Shown here piece after piece: positions 8,977-33,184 of a stretch of 33,931 bases of DNA. Source of the stretch: Bacteroidales bacterium (GTDB lineage: Bacteria > Bacteroidota > Bacteroidia > Bacteroidales > Muribaculaceae); NCBI GenBank assembly GCA_029007645.1, contig JAQXIE010000015.1, positions 1 through 33,931 of the forward strand, given 5' to 3'. Under the pieces are notes generated by a model. It saw only the letters and a program-made list of their open reading frames with translations. It made no database searches and had not been told where the DNA came from. Every line of letters begins with the position of its first letter. The stretch's first letter is position 1. Made by a program: the position numbers and the translations under genes.

Positions 8977-11900
8977 TTAAGGAATTGCACCTGTGTCCTT
9001 GATTCGGTATTCGCTCGGACTGACGCCGAATTGCTTCTTGAACGATGTCGAGAAATGCGACAGGGTCGAGAAGCCTGTCATATCGGCGATTTCCGAGATA
9101 TTATATTTGCCTTCGGCAATAAGCTCGGCGGCACGATTCAGTTTATAGGCCTTGAAGAAAGCCGCCGGATTCTCGCCGGTCAGTCCTTTGATCTTATAGT
9201 AGAATTTGGTGCGGGATATCCGCATGCGCTCGGTCAACTGATTGATATCGATTTCGGAGTTGGACAGTTCGCTTTCCATTATTGCATATAATTCGCTTAA
9301 GAAGGTCTTGTCCTGCGGCGAAAGGACGTTTTGTTCAATTTCCTCGGTCTTGGTTGAGGATTTTACCTGCAATTGCAGCTTTTCGCGATTGCCTAACAAG
9401 GATTTGACAAGAGCGAGCAGGTACTGGGGATCGAACGGTTTTGTGACATATGCGTCGGCTCCGGTATTGAGTCCTTCGATCTGATTCTCAACAGTGGATT
9501 TGGCTGTGACGAGAATCACAGGTATGTGACATACCTGGCTGTCGTTCTTGATCTGTCGGCACAGATCATATCCGTCGCGGCCGGGCATTACCACATCGCT
9601 GATTATGAGGTCGGGATTCTGGTCTGTCGTGGTTTTAAACGCCGAATCTGCATCGAATCTGCAAATGACGTTGTAGTAAGGCGAAAGCAGAGTCTTGAGG
9701 TAATATGCCACATCGGTGTCGTCGTCGACCACAAGCAGGTTTTTCCGGTTGTTGTCGGAGTCGACGGGAGGCTCCTCATTCACCGGATTCAGTTCTATAG
9801 GATAGGCTTTTTGTTGAGTTTCCTCGGCAATGATATGTTCGTTGTCGGGATAGCATTCATCCGCAATCGGAATGATTACGGTGAAAACGGCGCCGCTATG
9901 GCCATCGGTTCTGTTTTCCGCCCAGAGGTAACCGTGATGCAGACGGGCCAGAGCCCGGGCATAATATAGGCCGATACCGGTGCCCCAGTTGTATGAGCCA
10001 TTATTATTGCGGTCCACCTGATAATAGCGTTCGAATATTTTCTCCAATTGGCCGTCGGGTATGCCGTTTCCGCTGTCGGTCACCGTAAGCATGGCATATC
10101 TTGAAGACAGAGCAGTGGTTTTGCCTTCAAGCAGCTTGTTGGCTTCTTCGGCTGTTATAACATCGAAGCGTATTTCCACCTGACCTCCGGCCGGCGTGAA
10201 CTTCAGGGCGTTCGAAAGGATATTGCCGACAATCTTCTCGCACTTGTCGATATCGATCCATGTTATAAAGGAATCATTCAGGCCGCTGCAGGTAAGCTTA
10301 ATTCCTTTTTCCTGTGCATTGATGGAATAGATGTCGATAAACTGATGCAGATGCGAGATCATGTCAGTGCGGCATACCTGCAGTTTCAGCGTGTCGTTCT
10401 CAAGCTTATTGAAGTCCATAAGCTGATTGACCAGACGCAGCATTCGGGCCACATTACGGTGCACGATCCGTAAAATTCTTTTCTCGTCGCCTTTGATCTC
10501 CGGATTTTCATACAATTGCGTTATCGGGCCAGAAATCATGGTGAGAGGCGTACGGAATTCATGTGAGACATTGGCGAAAAAGCTCATGTTCATATTGTTG
10601 ACGCGCCGCTCCTGCTCCTTTTCCAGCCGTGCCTTATGGGCAGCGCGTCTTTCGCGTCTGATCTGTGTCAGAATCCGGATGAAAATCCACGCCACTATCA
10701 GTGCAGCGACCACATACAGACATATCGCCCACCAGGACCGCCATGGGGCAGGCTTGACCTTTATATTGATCGATGTCTCGACAGGTTCGATGCTGTTGTC
10801 GTTATTGGAAATCCTGACTTTGAACTTATAGATGCCCGACGGCAGATTGGCGTAATAAGCCTCACGGTTGTTGCCGGCGTCGATCCAATACTTGTCAAAT
10901 CCCTCCATGCGGTACTGATAATGAACCCGGTCATGCTCGCTGTAGTCAAGGGCGGCGAAGGAGATGCTGAAACCGTTCTCGTCATGATCAATGGTGATGT
11001 CGGGCCTATGCGACATTGCTTTGGAAATGTTGGTGTCATCGGTTGGGTGGATCACCCGGTTGTGTATCTTCAGATCCTCGAAGAGCAGGGGCACCGTTCG
11101 CAGCGTGCCGACTTCCGCAGGTTTGAACACGGTGAGGCCATGCGTGCCCCCGAAAGCGAGCGAGCCGTCGGGCAAACTGCATGAAGCCCTGTCATAGAAT
11201 TGGTTGCCTCCGATGCCGTCTTCCTCGTAATAGTTTGTGAATTTGCCTGAATGCGGGTCATATTTCCCCAGCCCATATTGTGTGGCGACCCAGAGATTGC
11301 CGTTGCTGTCCTCCTCGATGCTCGATATGTCGAGACAGGGCGTGCCGGCGATGTTACGTAAAGTGCCGCTGTCGGAATTATATTTCAGCAGGCCGTTGCT
11401 TACGGTCCCGATCCAGACGTTTCCGGAGCGGTCGCTCATCATGTCGGTGGGAATTAGCACCGACCGTTTGATGCATTGGGCAAGACTGTCGGGATGAAGC
11501 AGAGGATGTGGCTTAAGACTCCCGGAGTCAATCTGGCGTATGTCGGAATAAAATCCGGCAAAAAGCACCTTCCCGTCAGGCATGGCCAGTATGCTCGGTA
11601 CGAAAGCAGGCGAAGCCGGAAAGATATTTACGGGCTTAAATTCAACGTCTTCCTTCCGTTTGGCATAAACCTGATAGCTCTGAGTGCCGACCCATACTGT
11701 TCCCGACTTGTCTTCAACCATGGTCAGCGGCATGAACAGCTTATAAGATCTGACGACATTCAGGCCGTTGCCGTCGTAGGTGCAATGAAGTATAACATTC
11801 CCTTTGGAATAGGCCAGCCAGACATCGTTGTTTGAATCGACCATAATCCGGCTGATGTCGGCCACAGCGTGCGGGTTGTAAAAAGATGTCACAGGAGGGA

Positions 11901-13053
11901 CCTCTATTTTCCGAGCCTTCCGCGATTCGGTATTATATACGAACATTCCATCGGCAAGCGTAACAATCCAAAGATTTCCGCGAGAGTCTTTATCCAGAGA
12001 TATGACCGATTTTCCCTCAAACATCGAATTGAGGAAATTGTCCGTATTGAAGCGGGCCTTATAATGGTACCTTACGGCATAACCTTGGTCGACGGACCCA
12101 AACCATAAATTGTCGTGAGAATCCGTAAATATACAGCTCACATTGAAATCAGGAGCTTCAAACGGGAACCCGCTGTCGGATTGATGCAACATGGTGTTGG
12201 CCCAAAAGTCGAAAAGGAATAGGCCGTTCCGTTCGGTTGCCAGAAGGAGTGAATGGTCGTTGTAGGGATGTATGACGGTTATGGCGCTTCCCTGGAGTTT
12301 CGGGTGATTGGCGGCGGCCTCCGGTACGGCCGTAAATTTTCGTGACGATGTGCTGTATCGGGTCAGGTTGTGTCCCCCGGCCATCCATATGTCGCCGTTG
12401 TCCTGCATATATGCCGTCATCGGCCTCGTTGGCAGCGGAACGGAGTCTTCGACCTGGAACGTGTTGATGTTGATGCGGCGCAGGTATAGCGGGTTTATCG
12501 TCCACATCTTGTTGTCGGGGTCGATAAACGTGTGCTGATTATAAGTGTGCTGCGGGTCAAATTCGCTGACGACTATCCTGATGGAATCGCCTGTCTCGTC
12601 ATATACACCGAGATGATGCATATAGTCAAAAAGTATCCTCCCGTCTTTTGTCTGAAGAATCTTATGGATATTGCGGTTTGGAAAACTTTGGTGGATGTTA
12701 TGGAAATTATCCCGGTCGGTATATCTGCAGGCCCCGTTGACAGTAGCTATCCACAGGTTACCCTGCGAGTCATTCATTATATCGTTGATCTGATTGTCGG
12801 GAATATCGGTGGGATTGTCGGTACAATAATACTGATGGAATTCATGAACGTTGTATTTGTTCAGTCCCCTGATGGTACCCATCCAGATATGTCCTAAGGA
12901 ATCTTCGGCTATGACTTTGACTTTTTTATTTGAAAGTCCGGGAGCGATCACCGGGCTTTCAACCGAAGTCGACGTATGGTCCTGCTGTTCCTTTGTCCGG
13001 TTGCAGGCGGTTAAAATTGTAATTGCAGTCAGAAACAGACAGAGATTTCTCAT
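8977..13053 (-). CDS. Hybrid two-component system (HTCS) sensor-regulator
   Basis: The 1358-residue protein combines a whole signalling pathway. The N terminus has a lipobox-like LTAC (C16). Residues about 40-680 are two-component propeller repeats (recurring GNLWIATxxGLxKY and DSHDNLWFGS motifs), followed by a Y_Y_Y domain (about 695-765), a membrane helix (about 771-791), a coiled linker and HisKA with the phospho-acceptor H831 in NVSHEFRTPL. An HATPase domain (GNGIPDGQLEKIFERYY, GTGIGLYYA), a receiver with D1153 in ISDVVMPG, and a C-terminal AraC helix-turn-helix complete it. In Bacteroidota such proteins bind glycan fragments in the periplasm and activate nearby polysaccharide-use genes. 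It is divergent from the esterase/GH3 operon, the likely target. All catalytic signatures appear intact. Confidence 0.96.
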   Translation of the reverse strand: MRNLCLFLTAITILTACNRTKEQQDHTSTSVESPVIAPGLSNKKVKVIAEDSLGHIWMGTIRGLNKYNVHEFHQYYCTDNPTDIPDNQINDIMNDSQGNLWIATVNGACRYTDRDNFHNIHQSFPNRNIHKILQTKDGRILFDYMHHLGVYDETGDSIRIVVSEFDPQHTYNQHTFIDPDNKMWTINPLYLRRININTFQVEDSVPLPTRPMTAYMQDNGDIWMAGGHNLTRYSTSSRKFTAVPEAAANHPKLQGSAITVIHPYNDHSLLLATERNGLFLFDFWANTMLHQSDSGFPFEAPDFNVSCIFTDSHDNLWFGSVDQGYAVRYHYKARFNTDNFLNSMFEGKSVISLDKDSRGNLWIVTLADGMFVYNTESRKARKIEVPPVTSFYNPHAVADISRIMVDSNNDVWLAYSKGNVILHCTYDGNGLNVVRSYKLFMPLTMVEDKSGTVWVGTQSYQVYAKRKEDVEFKPVNIFPASPAFVPSILAMPDGKVLFAGFYSDIRQIDSGSLKPHPLLHPDSLAQCIKRSVLIPTDMMSDRSGNVWIGTVSNGLLKYNSDSGTLRNIAGTPCLDISSIEEDSNGNLWVATQYGLGKYDPHSGKFTNYYEEDGIGGNQFYDRASCSLPDGSLAFGGTHGLTVFKPAEVGTLRTVPLLFEDLKIHNRVIHPTDDTNISKAMSHRPDITIDHDENGFSISFAALDYSEHDRVHYQYRMEGFDKYWIDAGNNREAYYANLPSGIYKFKVRISNNDNSIEPVETSINIKVKPAPWRSWWAICLYVVAALIVAWIFIRILTQIRRERRAAHKARLEKEQERRVNNMNMSFFANVSHEFRTPLTMISGPITQLYENPEIKGDEKRILRIVHRNVARMLRLVNQLMDFNKLENDTLKLQVCRTDMISHLHQFIDIYSINAQEKGIKLTCSGLNDSFITWIDIDKCEKIVGNILSNALKFTPAGGQVEIRFDVITAEEANKLLEGKTTALSSRYAMLTVTDSGNGIPDGQLEKIFERYYQVDRNNNGSYNWGTGIGLYYARALARLHHGYLWAENRTDGHSGAVFTVIIPIADECYPDNEHIIAEETQQKAYPIELNPVNEEPPVDSDNNRKNLLVVDDDTDVAYYLKTLLSPYYNVICRFDADSAFKTTTDQNPDLIISDVVMPGRDGYDLCRQIKNDSQVCHIPVILVTAKSTVENQIEGLNTGADAYVTKPFDPQYLLALVKSLLGNREKLQLQVKSSTKTEEIEQNVLSPQDKTFLSELYAIMESELSNSEIDINQLTERMRISRTKFYYKIKGLTGENPAAFFKAYKLNRAAELIAEGKYNISEIADMTGFSTLSHFSTSFKKQFGVSPSEYRIKDTGAIP

Positions 13054-26763: not shown

Positions 26764-27009
26764 TCAAGCCAGGTATTCGGCCGGGACCTTGGGCATCGCC
26801 CCCTGCTGGGTGCAGACGAAAGCCGACGTTTTTACGGCGGTGGCGTGCGCGTCGCGGAGGGAGTGTCCCTTCAGTATGCTGGAGATGAATGCTCCGGTGA
26901 AGGAATCGCCGGCGCCGACGGTGTCGGCGACATCCACTTTCGGAGTGGGGAGGAAGGAATCTTCCTCGGCATCCAGAACATAGCTCCCGTCTATTTTTTC
27001 GTGGTCATT
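26764..27009 (-). pseudogene. C-terminal fragment of PfkB-family fructokinase
   Basis: On the minus strand an 81-codon frame without a start codon encodes the end of a PfkB sugar kinase: FLPTPKVDVADTVGAGDSF, then TGAFISSILKG, SAFVCTQQGAMPKVP and the stop at 26764-26766. The GAGDSF block contains the family's catalytic aspartate. An in-frame TGA at 27010-27012 and unrelated AT-rich DNA lie upstream, so at least two thirds of the gene (ATP- and sugar-binding N-terminal part) are missing. A proper terminator still follows. The sequence is well conserved, which points to a recent deletion. The subfamily is the Bacteroidota fructokinase type, not KDG kinase. Confidence 0.8.
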
Positions 27010-27219: not shown

Positions 27220-28542
27220 ATGAAGACTTACATCACGGTTTTATCCGCAATGTTTCTGCTTGCAACAGGCGCATCGGCTCAGCGAACCACCGGACAGATA
27301 GTGTCGGACGCCGCCGACCAATTACGGTATCAGGCCTCCCGGATTCCGGAGGATGGAAAGTTTCCCCGAACGCTCGTCACTGACTATTCAATACCTGAAG
27401 TGGCTTATCACCTGGAGCGCGCACCCAAAGATTTTTATCCCGAAACCGGCATGGCCAAACATCCTTCGGTCAAGGATTTCAGTACCGTTGCGTATGTGAA
27501 CTACCATGACTGGACGTCGGGTTTCTATCCCGGTTCGCTCTGGCTGGCCTACGAGATGACGGGCAACGAGGACCTGCGCGATCTGGCTGCTAAATACACC
27601 AACCAGCTTCTGCCGGTGTCGCGCAAGAAGGATACCCATGACCTCGGTTTCATGGTGAACTGTTCGTATGGAAACGCGTTGAGGCTCGCTCCCGACGATT
27701 CCATTAAGAATGTGATTGTGGCGACAGCCGACAATCTGATAGGCCGGTTCGACCCCAAGGTGGGACTGATCCGCAGCTGGGATTGGGGCAAATGGAATTA
27801 TCCCGTAATCATCGATAATATGATGAACCTGCAGCTACTCTTCAATGCTTCGAAACTGACCGGCGATCCGAAATACCGTGACATCGCCGTGAAGCATGCC
27901 GACAAGACCATGCGGAATCATTTCCGTTCGGACTATTCCAGCTATCATGTGGTAAGCTATACACCCGACGGCCGGGTTGAGAGCCGCGGCACATACCAGG
28001 GAAAAAGCCATGACTCGGCATGGTCGCGCGGACAGGCATGGGGCCTTTACGGCTACACCGAATGTTATCGCGAGACAGGCGAGAAGCGCTATCTGGATCA
28101 GGCGCGAAACATCGCTTCGCTGATCATGCGCAAGAATGAGGCTCCCGACCGTGTGCCGTATTGGGATCTCGATGCCCGGACCGCTCCCGATTCTCCCCGC
28201 GACGCTTCGGCCGGTGCGATCTGCGCCTCTGCTCTGATCGAACTGAGTACGTTCGTGCCCGAATGGGAAGGCAAGATTTACCGCGATTATGCCATGCAGA
28301 TTCTCGACGCTCTCTCGTCGGACAAATATACGGCCCCCAAATGTGCGAATGGCGGATTTATACTGATGCATTCCACCGGTTCGATGCCCCAGGGCTCGGA
28401 AATAGACACTCCGCTCAATTACGCCGATTACTATTATCTGGAGTCGCTGGCCCGTCTCAAACGAATTCAGGATGGTAAGACTCCCGGAGACTGGGATCGA
28501 ATCGCCGGTAAGAAAATCAGGAAATCCAAAAAATCGAAATAA
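27220..28542 (+). CDS. GH88 unsaturated glucuronyl hydrolase
   Basis: The 440-residue protein has a Sec signal (to about GASAQ) and an alpha/alpha-barrel of GH88. Key motifs are DWTSGFYPGSLWLAYE, THDLGFMV with D141, YPVIIDNMMNL with D199 (matching the two essential aspartates, D88 and D149, of Bacillus unsaturated glucuronyl hydrolase), HDSAWSRGQAWGLYGY and PRDASAGAICASAL. Family members remove the 4,5-unsaturated uronic acid left at the non-reducing end after polysaccharide lyases act on glycosaminoglycans, pectin-like or xanthan-like glycans. The product normally flows through KDG and KDPG to central metabolism; the kinase/aldolase genes for this are fused and truncated 1.4 kb downstream. 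No lyase is in the window. Confidence 0.93.
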   Translation: MKTYITVLSAMFLLATGASAQRTTGQIVSDAADQLRYQASRIPEDGKFPRTLVTDYSIPEVAYHLERAPKDFYPETGMAKHPSVKDFSTVAYVNYHDWTSGFYPGSLWLAYEMTGNEDLRDLAAKYTNQLLPVSRKKDTHDLGFMVNCSYGNALRLAPDDSIKNVIVATADNLIGRFDPKVGLIRSWDWGKWNYPVIIDNMMNLQLLFNASKLTGDPKYRDIAVKHADKTMRNHFRSDYSSYHVVSYTPDGRVESRGTYQGKSHDSAWSRGQAWGLYGYTECYRETGEKRYLDQARNIASLIMRKNEAPDRVPYWDLDARTAPDSPRDASAGAICASALIELSTFVPEWEGKIYRDYAMQILDALSSDKYTAPKCANGGFILMHSTGSMPQGSEIDTPLNYADYYYLESLARLKRIQDGKTPGDWDRIAGKKIRKSKKSK

Positions 28543-28584: not shown

Positions 28585-29898
28585 ATGACTCAGGATTTCA
28601 AAGAAGTAAACGAAAGCTATACGCTGCCGGAAGCAATCCGGGAGGCTCAGCGCTGTCTGCATTGCAAGGTGCCCGTATGCCGCAAGGGCTGTCCCATCGG
28701 GAATGATATCCCGGAGTGGATAGGGGAGCTGGCCAAGGGTAACTTCGGCAATGCCATGGCCATAATAAACAAGCGGAGCAATCTGCCGGCCGTGTGCGGC
28801 CGCGTGTGCGCCCACGAACGTCAGTGCGAGGGAAATTGCGTGCTCGGCAAGAAGGGCGCGCATATAAACATCGGCAAACTCGAGCGGTTTGTGGCCGATT
28901 TCGATTCAGAGGCCGGCATCACGCACGAGGCCATCCCTGAAAAGACCCGTGGACGGGTGGCTGTCATAGGCAGCGGACCCGCCGGGCTTACTGTGGCCGG
29001 TGATCTGGCGCGCAGGGGGTTCTCGGTCGAGATTTTCGAAATGGAGCGTGAGGCCGGCGGCGTACTGATGCTCGGTATTCCCGAATATAGGCTTCCCAAG
29101 GCCGTGGTGCGTCGTGAAATCAAGAAGATCGAGAATCTGGGCGTTGTGATACATCTCAACACTACGATCGGGGAGCAGATGACGATCGACAATCTGTTCC
29201 GCCAGAATTTCGACGCCATCTTTATCGGCACCGGGGCCGGCAAGCCGACACGCCTTGACATTCCGGGCTGCAACAATCCGGGCGTGCGTCAGGGCATCCG
29301 GTTCCTGCGCCGCGTCTCGCTCTATGAGAACGGTTATATGGACCGTGACGAGGTCTACGTGCACGAAGGCGACAAGGTGTTTGTCGTCGGATGCGGCAAC
29401 ACGGCCATGGACACGGCGCGCACTGCTCTACGGATGGGCGCGGCCGAGGTGACGGTGGTTTACCGCCGCACCATCAATGAGATGAAGGCACTCCGGACAG
29501 AATATGACGAGGCCGTAAAGGAAGGCGTGAAGTTCATGTGGAAGTCGAATATTGTCAAAATCGATTCCGATCCCCACGCCGACCGCTTGTCCAATATCAC
29601 CATCGACACGGAAGGCACACAGACTACTGTTCCGGCCGACTTCGTGATCCTGGCACTGGGCAGCGCGCCGGCTTCGCGAATCGTCTCGACGACCAACGGC
29701 CTCGATGTGGATGAACGCGGTTATGTGGTGACCCGAAAGGAACCTTACGGCATGTCGTCGCGCGTCGGGGTGTTTGCCGGTGGCGACGTCACCGAACGTC
29801 CGGCGACTGTGGTCGAGGCCATGAGGGAGGCTAAAATGGTTGCCGAAAGTATCGAGAGGTATGTCGACGCCGTGAAATTAATGGAAAAAATCAAGTAA
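28585..29898 (+). CDS. GltD-like NADPH:FAD oxidoreductase (glutamate synthase small-subunit family)
   Basis: The 437-residue protein has the N-terminal Fe-S domain with two cysteine groups (C24, C27, C32, C36 in CLHCKVPVCRKGC; C71, C75, C81, C85), an FAD-binding GSGPAG at residues 130-135 and an NADPH-binding VVGCGNTAMDTA near residue 265. The C-terminal GVFAGGDVTERPATVVEAM completes the FAD site. This is the build of the NADPH-dependent glutamate synthase small subunit and of NfnB-like electron-bifurcating subunits. No large glutamate synthase subunit or NfnA is adjacent, so it acts alone or with a distant partner. It sits 42 bases after GH88 and 6 bases before the kdgK-eda fusion. Confidence 0.9.
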   Translation: MTQDFKEVNESYTLPEAIREAQRCLHCKVPVCRKGCPIGNDIPEWIGELAKGNFGNAMAIINKRSNLPAVCGRVCAHERQCEGNCVLGKKGAHINIGKLERFVADFDSEAGITHEAIPEKTRGRVAVIGSGPAGLTVAGDLARRGFSVEIFEMEREAGGVLMLGIPEYRLPKAVVRREIKKIENLGVVIHLNTTIGEQMTIDNLFRQNFDAIFIGTGAGKPTRLDIPGCNNPGVRQGIRFLRRVSLYENGYMDRDEVYVHEGDKVFVVGCGNTAMDTARTALRMGAAEVTVVYRRTINEMKALRTEYDEAVKEGVKFMWKSNIVKIDSDPHADRLSNITIDTEGTQTTVPADFVILALGSAPASRIVSTTNGLDVDERGYVVTRKEPYGMSSRVGVFAGGDVTERPATVVEAMREAKMVAESIERYVDAVKLMEKIK

Positions 29899-29904
29899 TA
29901 GATA

Positions 29905-30240
29905 ATGAGCAAGATTGTAACACTTGGTGAGATAATGTTGCGGCTGTCGCCCCAGGGCTCGAAGCGATTTGTACAGGTAGACAGCTTCGATGTGATATGG
30001 GGCGGAGGCGAGGCCAATGTGGCCGTAAGCTGTGCCAATTATGGACATGACGCTTATTTTGTGAGCAAACTTCCCGCGCACGAGATCGGTCAGGCTGCCG
30101 TGAACGCGCTGCGCCGATATGGCGTGCATACCGATTATGTGGGTATGGGAAGCAAGCTGTTCCCCAAGGAGAAGGTTTCGGCGGCCGACTGGCAATATGT
30201 CACGGATAAATGCCGCGAGACCCTCGGTTATTACAAATAA
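29905..30240 (+). pseudogene. In-frame fusion of KDG kinase N terminus to KDPG aldolase C terminus
   Basis: The 111-codon frame is a chimera. Residues 1 to about 78 are the start of 2-keto-3-deoxygluconate kinase (KdgK, PfkB family): IVTLGEIMLRLSP, the sugar-binding IWGGGEANVAVSCANYG, and ALRRYGVHTDYV. From about residue 79 the sequence changes to the C terminus of KDPG/KHG aldolase (Eda): VGMGSKLFPKE, SAADW and CRETLGYYK, then TAA. The kinase's ATP site and catalytic GAGD motif, and the aldolase barrel with its Schiff-base lysine, are all missing. The two genes are commonly adjacent as kdgK-eda in Bacteroidota, so a single deletion of roughly 1.4 kb with in-frame joining near 30140 explains the structure. 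Neither activity can remain. An assembly error cannot be excluded. Confidence 0.85.
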
Positions 30241-30283: not shown

Positions 30284-31162
30284 TTATTTGTCGAAATTTC
30301 TGGTTACGAAGGGTAGGGCCGTGTAGAGAGCGGAATGCCAGTACTCGCCGGTATGGCCACCGTCGCGGACACGGAACTGGCAGGGAATCCCGGCGTTGCG
30401 CATGGCCTGATAGAACTCGATGTTGCGATCCAGAAGGAAATCGTCATCGCCGCAGTCAACAAACCAGGCAACGGTGCGAAGGTCGTTTTTGCGGGCATCG
30501 TCGGCATCCTGAATATATTTGATGCAGCTGTTCTTGATCACGGCGTTAGTCAGTAAGTTCATCTTGCTCTTCGGGTCGGGTGTGGGATTCTCAGCACCGC
30601 TCGGGATATTCATCAGGGCGCTCATGGCATAGGCCGAGCTGAACATGTCGGGATGTCGCTGGGCATAGCTGGTGGCACCTCCGCCTCCCATCGAAAGGCC
30701 GGCGATAGCGCGGTGGCCCTTGTCGGCTTTGATACGGTACGTCTTTTCAATATAGGGAAGGAATTCCTGATAGAAGAAGTCTTCGTATTTCCAACCGGGC
30801 ATGTTGAAATAGCCGTTCCATTCGGTCGAGGGGTTGCCACCGGCATTGGGTGAAACCACAATCATTTCGCAGGCTTCGCCCGATGCGATAAGCTGATCCA
30901 GAACATCCATGACACGCTGATCGTTGAACCAGCTCGTATTGACTCCGCTCATGCCGTGAAGCAGATAGAGAACAGGATATGTGCGGTCTTTATCCACGTC
31001 ATAACTCTTGGGCAGATAGATTGTATACTGTCGTGTGGCTCCGAGGATGTCGCTGTGAATGCTGTCGGTAACGACTTTGCTCTGAGGACCCCAGCCGGGG
31101 AATTGCGCTCCTGCGCTGAACGCTGTCACCAGCGCGATAAGCGTGAATAGAATCTTTTTCAT
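30284..31162 (-). CDS. CE1-family secreted esterase
   Basis: The 292-residue protein has a Sec signal (to about FSAGAQ) and a single esterase-D/CE1 domain: YLLHGMSGVNTSWF, nucleophile S157 in GLSMGG, the acidic residue in VDCGDDDFLLD and H270 in RDGGHTGEYW. Unlike the CE1 enzyme at 15033-16229 it has no N-terminal Ig/CBM48-like domain. It likely removes acetyl or feruloyl groups from plant glycans. It stands alone, convergent with the kdgK-eda fusion and divergent from the glyoxalase-like gene. No clear -7 element is visible in the 100-base gap upstream. Confidence 0.88.
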   Translation of the reverse strand: MKKILFTLIALVTAFSAGAQFPGWGPQSKVVTDSIHSDILGATRQYTIYLPKSYDVDKDRTYPVLYLLHGMSGVNTSWFNDQRVMDVLDQLIASGEACEMIVVSPNAGGNPSTEWNGYFNMPGWKYEDFFYQEFLPYIEKTYRIKADKGHRAIAGLSMGGGGATSYAQRHPDMFSSAYAMSALMNIPSGAENPTPDPKSKMNLLTNAVIKNSCIKYIQDADDARKNDLRTVAWFVDCGDDDFLLDRNIEFYQAMRNAGIPCQFRVRDGGHTGEYWHSALYTALPFVTRNFDK

Positions 31163-31783: not shown

Positions 31784-33184
31784 CTAAAGTTTTGACAACT
31801 CGTCGATCAACGCAGGTCTGCGAGGAGTGCGCGATTTTTGTTCTATTGCAATTTGTTCCGCTTCTTCCGCACCTCCATATCGAATAAGTTTTCTTAAAAA
31901 TGCTACACCTTCACGGTATGAGTCACGATTGGATGCGCGTTGAAAATATTTTCGGACGGCAGAAGCATATAACCTGACTATTTCATCTCTGAATTGTTTT
32001 TTGACTTCTGAGGGCGCATCATCGATATCATATATGGATGGATTCTTGCGAATATAGTCCATATATTCCTGCCACATCTTCTCTTGTGTGTAAATATACA
32101 GCAGACGGACAATATCTTTTTTGCTCTGAGCCTCGCTTATCAAAGATTTTACATATTTTTCCCATTCTTCATGGGGAACAAGAGACTTAAGCACAGAGTA
32201 CATCGATTCCATGGAGTATTCCTTTTCGCCCCATCTGCTTCCACCGAAAAAGAAGTATCTGGCTAACCGAAGTTCATTGTTCTTGTCTCCTATTTCGCGA
32301 TAGACCTTATATTCCCATTCACGCCAGTCGCTTACAAGACCTGCATACTCTGTATCATGGTTTACGCCATCTATGGCAAGTCTAAGAACCTCATCATAAT
32401 CGGTCTTATCCCAAGCCATTTGAATAAGCCTTTTACGAAAATCCGGATTAGATACGTTGTCATACATAAACTTGACTTGATCTTCCGGACTGCCACACCG
32501 CGAGATTATTTCAAGTTTGTATTTTTGTGCAGTCTCAGCATTGTATTTTGCACTCCAATCATCGCCATTGGGCTTGATGGCATCTAATGCTTTTATTACT
32601 CTATTCTGCTTGTCGGGAGTATCTGCAAGGTCGATTGCCATTTCCATCCAGTCCCACCACCAATCCCATCCTTTGAGATCTTTGTCATTGAACCGGGTAA
32701 GAGCAAGCTCAAAAATTTCGGATTTAATACTTATTGGGAGGTTTGGGTCAGAACCGAGTTCATGCCATTTTTCAAAGCAGTCGTACACTATTGCTCCTAA
32801 TTCTCCAGCACTATCGTCTCCGCTATTGATAATATCTTCGGCAACGGAAGCGATACCGGTTAGAACGGCTACAGCGACTGTCCATTGTCCATTTCTCATT
32901 GCTTCATCCGCTTCATCAAGAATACGAGTTACAGCGCGGTTGAAGCCAAAACTATCGCTATACTCAATATAGCCATGTCTTCCGCCGAAATCCTCAATCA
33001 GATCCTCTACTCGTGACGCATAGACATCAGGATTGGGCCGGAATAATGTACCTGCACCAAGAGCGAGGAATCTATCTTGAAATTGTCCGTCGTGAGTACA
33101 TTCCTTTCGGATGAAGTCCTCGATTTGCTCTCGGTCAAGCTTTGATAAGAGTAAATCCACTGTATTAATTTTCTTTTTTGCCAT
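31784..33184 (-). CDS. Helical-repeat protein, unknown function (SWIM-protein C-terminal-like)
   Basis: The 466-residue protein is cytoplasmic (no signal), strongly helical and rich in charged and Trp residues (GWDWWWDWMEMAIDLAD). Its second half, with alternating helices (LLYIYTQEKMWQEYMDYI, RLYASAVRKYFQRASNRDSY, FLRKLIRYGGAEEAEQIA, RRPALIDELSKL), resembles the solenoid that follows SWIM zinc fingers in larger bacterial proteins. No CxC-type zinc site is present here, so it would be a free-standing solenoid. It begins 7 bases after the beta-barrel gene and is most likely co-transcribed. Base composition is AT-richer than most of the window. The similarity is weak and by eye. Confidence 0.6.
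   Translation of the reverse strand: MAKKKINTVDLLLSKLDREQIEDFIRKECTHDGQFQDRFLALGAGTLFRPNPDVYASRVEDLIEDFGGRHGYIEYSDSFGFNRAVTRILDEADEAMRNGQWTVAVAVLTGIASVAEDIINSGDDSAGELGAIVYDCFEKWHELGSDPNLPISIKSEIFELALTRFNDKDLKGWDWWWDWMEMAIDLADTPDKQNRVIKALDAIKPNGDDWSAKYNAETAQKYKLEIISRCGSPEDQVKFMYDNVSNPDFRKRLIQMAWDKTDYDEVLRLAIDGVNHDTEYAGLVSDWREWEYKVYREIGDKNNELRLARYFFFGGSRWGEKEYSMESMYSVLKSLVPHEEWEKYVKSLISEAQSKKDIVRLLYIYTQEKMWQEYMDYIRKNPSIYDIDDAPSEVKKQFRDEIVRLYASAVRKYFQRASNRDSYREGVAFLRKLIRYGGAEEAEQIAIEQKSRTPRRPALIDELSKL

Follow-up and report, generated by a model that had tools for sequence, protein, structure and literature searches.

How did a gene that begins as a sugar kinase come to end as an aldolase, and is the result a protein or a scar? 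The frame at 29905-30240 (+) of the window, by which we mean the whole 33,931-nucleotide stretch of DNA that was analysed, stays open for 111 codons from ATG to TAA with no internal stop and joins the first 77 residues of the KDG kinase KdgK in frame with the C-terminal 33 residues of the KDPG aldolase Eda. Profile searches match residues 1-79 to PfkB (PF00294, E 6.7e-10) and, among the kinase models, residues 2-80 to NF041633 (E 9.1e-31) and residues 1-79 to NF041332 (E 1.3e-20), while residues 77-109 correspond to positions 184-216 of 223 in the aldolase model NF005499 (E 3.9e-7). In a search of solved structures, the KDG kinase 2afb matched residues 3-83 (E 3.8e-25) and the KDPG/KHG aldolase 8di1 matched residues 76-109 (E 9.6e-5), each covering its own part rather than one structure covering both. 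The initial annotation had read this frame as an in-frame union of a kdgK N terminus and an eda C terminus, and the Pfam and NCBIfam profiles and both structures bear it out. The N-terminal part of the KdgK family profile is present in the frame; the GGGDSF stretch seen in the C-terminal part of relatives' KdgK, where we take it to have a catalytic role, is absent from the 111 residues. Eda in full is a chain of about 220 residues that carries the Schiff-base lysine; the fused frame does not hold such a chain, only its last 33 residues. Lacking most of both enzymes, the 111-residue product should have neither activity. The gltD-like gene for an NAD(P)-binding oxidoreductase at 28585..29898 (+) has its stop 6 bases before the fused frame, and with this position, the start of kdgK and the stop of eda, the frame may still be transcribed. 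RNA folding of its 3′ end places a hairpin where the frame ends (z -3.12). We put the probability at roughly 0.86 that the frame is a deletion scar, probably a recent one, in an abandoned hexuronate pathway.

The case for a deletion begins with relatives, for which we used at least 80 loci from a public genome collection together with genomes of the genus. Their kdgK and eda genes are full length and adjacent. With a gap of less than 400 bp as the pairing criterion, 94 relatives' loci have eda 3-200 bp behind kdgK on one strand, a figure that includes overlapping or duplicate stretches of one genome and is not a species count. The start of kdgK occurs in 123 loci, three of them the window's own and 120 from relatives. 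A gltD-like gene of at least 60% identity stands directly before kdgK in 10 of these 120 (L002, L003, L038, L043, L059, L063, L070, L079, L082 and L163), after kdgK in four and elsewhere in the stretch in six; in L158 the order is reversed and the gltD-like gene is not before kdgK. The other 100 loci, 94 of which extend at least 1400 bp upstream, have no gltD-like gene at that identity. The exact ancestral layout therefore rests on a minority of loci, among which L059, L063, L082 and L079 have the whole order of gltD-like gene, kdgK (340 aa) and eda. An intact pair behind the gltD-like gene in sister genomes, for which the initial annotation proposed a search, is thus found, and the in-frame deletion of about 1.4 kb that it postulated agrees with these adjacent pairs, since the loss on the L059 layout comes to 1366 bp. 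The ancestor of the present locus would have had kdgK and then eda behind the gltD-like gene. Apart from the fused frame itself, no row spanned both parts in the search of the 111 genomes of the genus or among the matches listed in the search of 393 genomes of the order. The possibility raised earlier, that the 111-residue form is an ancestral short gene, fails on these two grounds of full-length relatives and no spanning row listed. One genome of the genus, G091, was considered as a sister with the same fusion and rejected, as both parts, kdgK and eda, sit at the ends of contigs and represent contig breaks. None of the titles and abstract openings listed in our literature search mentions such a kdgK-eda fusion, and a published one may exist. 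Four loci titled as Mollicutes or Anaeroplasma-like MAGs (L087:8484-8732, L088:8484-8732, L094:8478-8726 and L099:939-1187) show, about 1.5 kb ahead of the first kdgK-like match, a second one of 51% identity.

The joint itself can be placed closely. In the DNA search, most kdgK rows stop at query positions 1541-1554 and most eda rows start at 1554-1555, which corresponds to window positions 30125-30139, and a codon comparison with relatives puts the joint within 30131-30138. The junction had originally been given as near 30140, which was close but a few bases too late. The kdgK remnant thus occupies 29905..30130 (+), with its own start codon, codons 1-75 and the first base of codon 76, and the eda remnant occupies 30139..30240 (+), with the last 33 codons and the stop. 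Between them, at 30131..30138 (+), are the bases CCGATTAT, attributable to either gene and a putative short repeat of up to 8 bp. Codons 76-79 of the window read ACC GAT TAT GTG. At this site relatives' kdgK commonly has ACC GAY, then TAY, CAY or TTY, then ATN; the first base A is kdgK-like and GTG is eda-like, so the crossover falls inside the eight bases. In L059, kdgK reads ACC GAC CAC ATA against GCC GAC TAC GTG in eda, and the two sites have CCGAC and two of the next three bases in common. ACC GAT TAT occurs at the kdgK site in seven of the rows listed, and A-D-Y occurs at the eda site in L059 and L068 only among the rows listed; no relative listed in the codon comparison has the eight bases on both sides. 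We infer an ancestor that carried all eight at both sites. The roughly 1.37 kb that separated kdgK codons 76-78 from the site late in eda would then have been lost; slippage or illegitimate recombination is the probable mechanism, acting on a short stretch of up to 8 bp common to both genes. The accessible part of PMC11372144 describes illegitimate recombination in E. coli as considerably similar to microhomology-mediated end joining.

The remainder of the genome indicates what kind of pathway the deletion struck. The assembly is a 2.01 Mb draft of 112 contigs (the window is on contig C15) that is 90.15% complete and 1.3% contaminated. Within this draft, the fused frame has no second match, and nothing of the Aldolase family exceeds the cut-off; a single weak match of 13.3 bits falls in a 723-codon frame. 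The initial annotation had allowed for intact copies elsewhere; the search of the draft for kdgK and eda found none. PfkB matches occur in four places, namely the fusion, 26764-27009, contig C46 (over the cut-off) and contig C12 (under it), the last two being partial matches in longer frames. The portion of PMC12838403 available to us names KduI or DhuI, followed by KduD or DhuD, as the enzymes that metabolise unsaturated uronate. KduI has no match in the genome. UxaC is represented only by profile positions 398-463, its C-terminal end, in a 72-codon frame behind a tRNA-Leu gene (L167:1487-1705, own contig C37), an assignment confirmed by the glucuronate isomerase 3iac (E 6.1e-21) and PF02614. 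By eye, a tandem repeat of about 14 bases precedes this remnant. For UxuA there is a single match, which spans 36 positions, at L168:1522-1659 on contig C65, where it adjoins an alginate-lyase-family gene. It does not reach the cut-off (E 0.003), and its second codon is a stop; compared with mannonate dehydratase it gives E 0.001 over 29 residues. At this strength the match does no more than suggest a remnant. On its other side lies a stretch that looks by eye like one tRNA in two identical copies. Across the five genes searched (kdgK, eda, kduI, uxaC and uxuA), the glucuronate and unsaturated-uronate routes look to be gone, and through more than one event. Having no KduI, just the C terminus of UxaC and no more than a scrap of UxuA, the strain has probably lost the ability to burn uronates. 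The loss of the KDG branch and the abandonment of the pathway, both suggested from the start, are favoured by these further gaps.

Among the rival explanations, an assembly or strain-mixture artefact fares best, although we rate it as improbable. It holds that kdgK and eda are intact and that the assembler skipped about 1.37 kb. The genome is indeed a draft in 112 contigs with 90.15% completeness, and the kdgK and eda parts at contig ends in G091 indicate that the region can be hard to assemble. However, with no more than 8 bp the candidate repeat is far below usual assembler word lengths, and neither an eda part nor another kdgK part was found elsewhere in the assembly. Furthermore, the missing KduI, the cut UxaC and the missing or cut UxuA would each need a separate artefact; since the hexuronate route is lost at several loci, a local misassembly becomes unlikely. 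The misassembly named as the main alternative in the initial annotation keeps a small share of the probability, reduced by the other pathway scars and the absent excised pieces.

If the frame is a deletion scar, its intact reading frame needs an explanation. We counted the exact repeats common to two genes and the share of them that lie in the same codon phase. For kdgK and eda of L059, the phase is the same in 69 of 83 repeats of at least 7 bp and in 25 of 30 repeats of at least 8 bp. Over 97 loci, which are related and partly duplicated rather than independent, it is the same in 3544 of 5157 repeats (69%) at 7 bp or more and in 1237 of 1667 at 8 bp or more. Between 12 genes of the window, the corresponding counts are 3847 of 7060 (54%) and 1089 of 1874, and shuffled genes gave 1712 of 5215 (33%; one shuffle, 7 bp or more only). 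The two genes both encode proteins and use similar codons, which puts most of the short sequences that they share in phase, and an in-frame joint is therefore the likelier outcome of a short-repeat deletion. In-frame fusion of the two ends would need no selection. The remark that a deletion in frame is odd for simple decay is not supported, as these counts favour an in-frame outcome. Where a short-repeat deletion joins two coding genes, an in-frame joint says little in favour of function, a point of relevance to how short chimeric genes are annotated.

The phase counts matter for a second rival, in which the fused frame encodes a novel short protein that is retained because it serves some role, such as that of a small regulator or inhibitor made from the kinase N terminus. 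We give this reading a very small chance. The frame is open, has a start and a stop, lies behind gltD and shows no conserved-site change in either part. That last observation is a weak test, as the kdgK part shares this state with 60 of 91 relatives and the eda part with 67 of 71. Over its 77 codons the kdgK part agrees with L059 at 71 first, 72 second and 31 third positions, and the eda part over its 33 codons at 28, 29 and 17, respectively. Unchanged sites and mainly third-position differences fit both a recent loss and continued selection, between which one sequence cannot separate. Against a new protein, homologues spanning both parts are lacking from the rows of the genus (111 genomes) and from those listed for the order (393 genomes), and the other scars of the hexuronate pathway point to plain loss. 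The predicted structure has a mean pLDDT of 44.9 and a pTM of 0.42 with no residue at 70 or above, and is weak evidence because its alignment had 14 rows and none for the aldolase part; lacking a confident fold, the prediction just gives the 111-residue product no support. The suggestion of a new functional short protein consequently finds no support, for want of a spanning homologue in the listed rows and of a confident fold.

The genes around the scar raise the question of what becomes of the uronate. The GH88 unsaturated glucuronyl hydrolase at 27220..28542 (+), 1.36 kb before the fusion, is retained. Its best solved match is 3wiw, 'Glycosyl hydrolase family 88', over residues 65-417 of 440 (E 1.3e-105), which confirms the label first given to it; PF07470 scores 44.6 bits against a cut-off of 26.6, and the N terminus has by eye a signal-like stretch. 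Beside the UxuA scrap is a 404-residue protein of the Alginate_lyase family (PF05426, E 1.3e-89; 3nfv, 'alginate lyase', E 3.1e-106). Judged by family membership, this enzyme and GH88 could make and cut unsaturated uronate ends. As both genes are kept and the inner route is gone, released uronate may go unused by the cell itself. The two enzymes probably uncover a non-uronate part of a glycan or are themselves being lost: access to the sugars adjoining the uronate would be their simplest use, and ongoing decay is equally possible. Between a LuxR-type regulator and GH88, within about 3 kb of the fusion, lies another scar of a PfkB sugar kinase at 26764..27009 (-), a C-terminal end (profile positions 230-300 of 302) with no start codon and its 5′ part missing. 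We considered it as the missing half of kdgK and rejected it, as its best curated match is ribokinase (E 5.8e-14) with the KDG kinase model NF040938 lower (E 3.1e-11), and it differs by eye from the kdgK C termini of relatives; its sequence makes a separate scar more likely. On the other side of the fusion, a convergent esterase gene (PF00756; CE1 in the initial annotation) occupies 30284..31162 (-). The window also encodes, at 31784-33184 (-), a 466-residue protein with no Pfam or PADLOC match at E 0.001 and, at 8977-13053 (-), a hybrid two-component protein with propeller, histidine kinase, receiver and AraC domains. A protein of this type is the usual regulator of Bacteroidales glycan loci.

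Retention of GH88 also speaks for a third rival with as slim a chance as the new protein, a pathway that is intact but moved or replaced, yet kdgK, eda, kduI, uxaC and uxuA would all at once have to be hidden in the missing tenth of the genome or replaced by non-homologous enzymes, and the isomerases of this kind that do exist, such as DhuI, belong to a dhuD-dhuI system placed in Bacillota but not Bacteroidota by the portion of PMC12838403 available to us. We return, therefore, to a deletion scar, and to a bacterium that keeps uronate-releasing enzymes and has lost the using steps, which is a testable case of leftover or shared digestion. With outer release by the alginate-lyase-family enzyme and GH88 kept and the inner route lost, unsaturated uronate would go to neighbours. 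That the strain does feed its neighbours in this way, and that short-repeat deletions in coding genes are at the same time biased to in-frame chimeras well above one in three, is a joint proposal that we hold tentatively and consider rather doubtful. If true, gene loss keeps producing translatable chimeric frames above the one-in-three expectation.

The distribution in the genus is compatible with ordinary loss. In counts over 111 genomes, from whose kdgK set we left out G132 because its sole match is an eda part, both genes are present in 43, neither in 64, kdgK only in three and eda only in one (53% complete). The three with kdgK only are the genome under study and two genomes that are each 67% complete (G114 and G124). 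Among the 46 genomes with a completeness of 90% or more and no more than 5% contamination, the fused-frame query matched 19 and the Aldolase family 18. Absence of the pair is thus common in the genus, and our genome is caught in a partial state. PF07470, which covers GH88 and its relatives, is found at E 0.001 in 54 of the 111 genomes, 51 of them over the cut-off; eda is present in 41 of the 54 and absent from 13, several of which are weak matches. Fisher tests on these genus counts ignore kinship. Taken alone, the event is ordinary gene loss, and the fusion was found in its own genome only.

Three known systems place the locus in context. NF041633, a natural KHG/KDPG aldolase-sugar kinase fusion of 580 positions, holds the same two activities in one chain, and its positions 242-320 match the kdgK remnant. 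In NF041633 the kinase match starts at position 242, with another part ahead of it, whereas here 77 residues of kinase open the chain and 33 of aldolase close it, and the fused frame scores 106.9 bits against a curated cut-off of 700. The kdgK-eda pair of Bacteroidales, as seen in L059, L063, L082 and L079, has the same order, strand and place behind the gltD-like gene as the window; the genes of that pair are full length, and the window is without about 1.37 kb of them. Bacterial deletion pseudogenes, which arise by short-repeat or illegitimate-recombination deletions, share with this locus a clean internal deletion, an unused pathway, further scars in the genome and a joint compatible with a short repeat. 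Unlike them, the deletion described here cut into two adjacent genes at once and left their remains in a single open frame, an outcome that the phase bias of the repeats shared by kdgK and eda makes likely.
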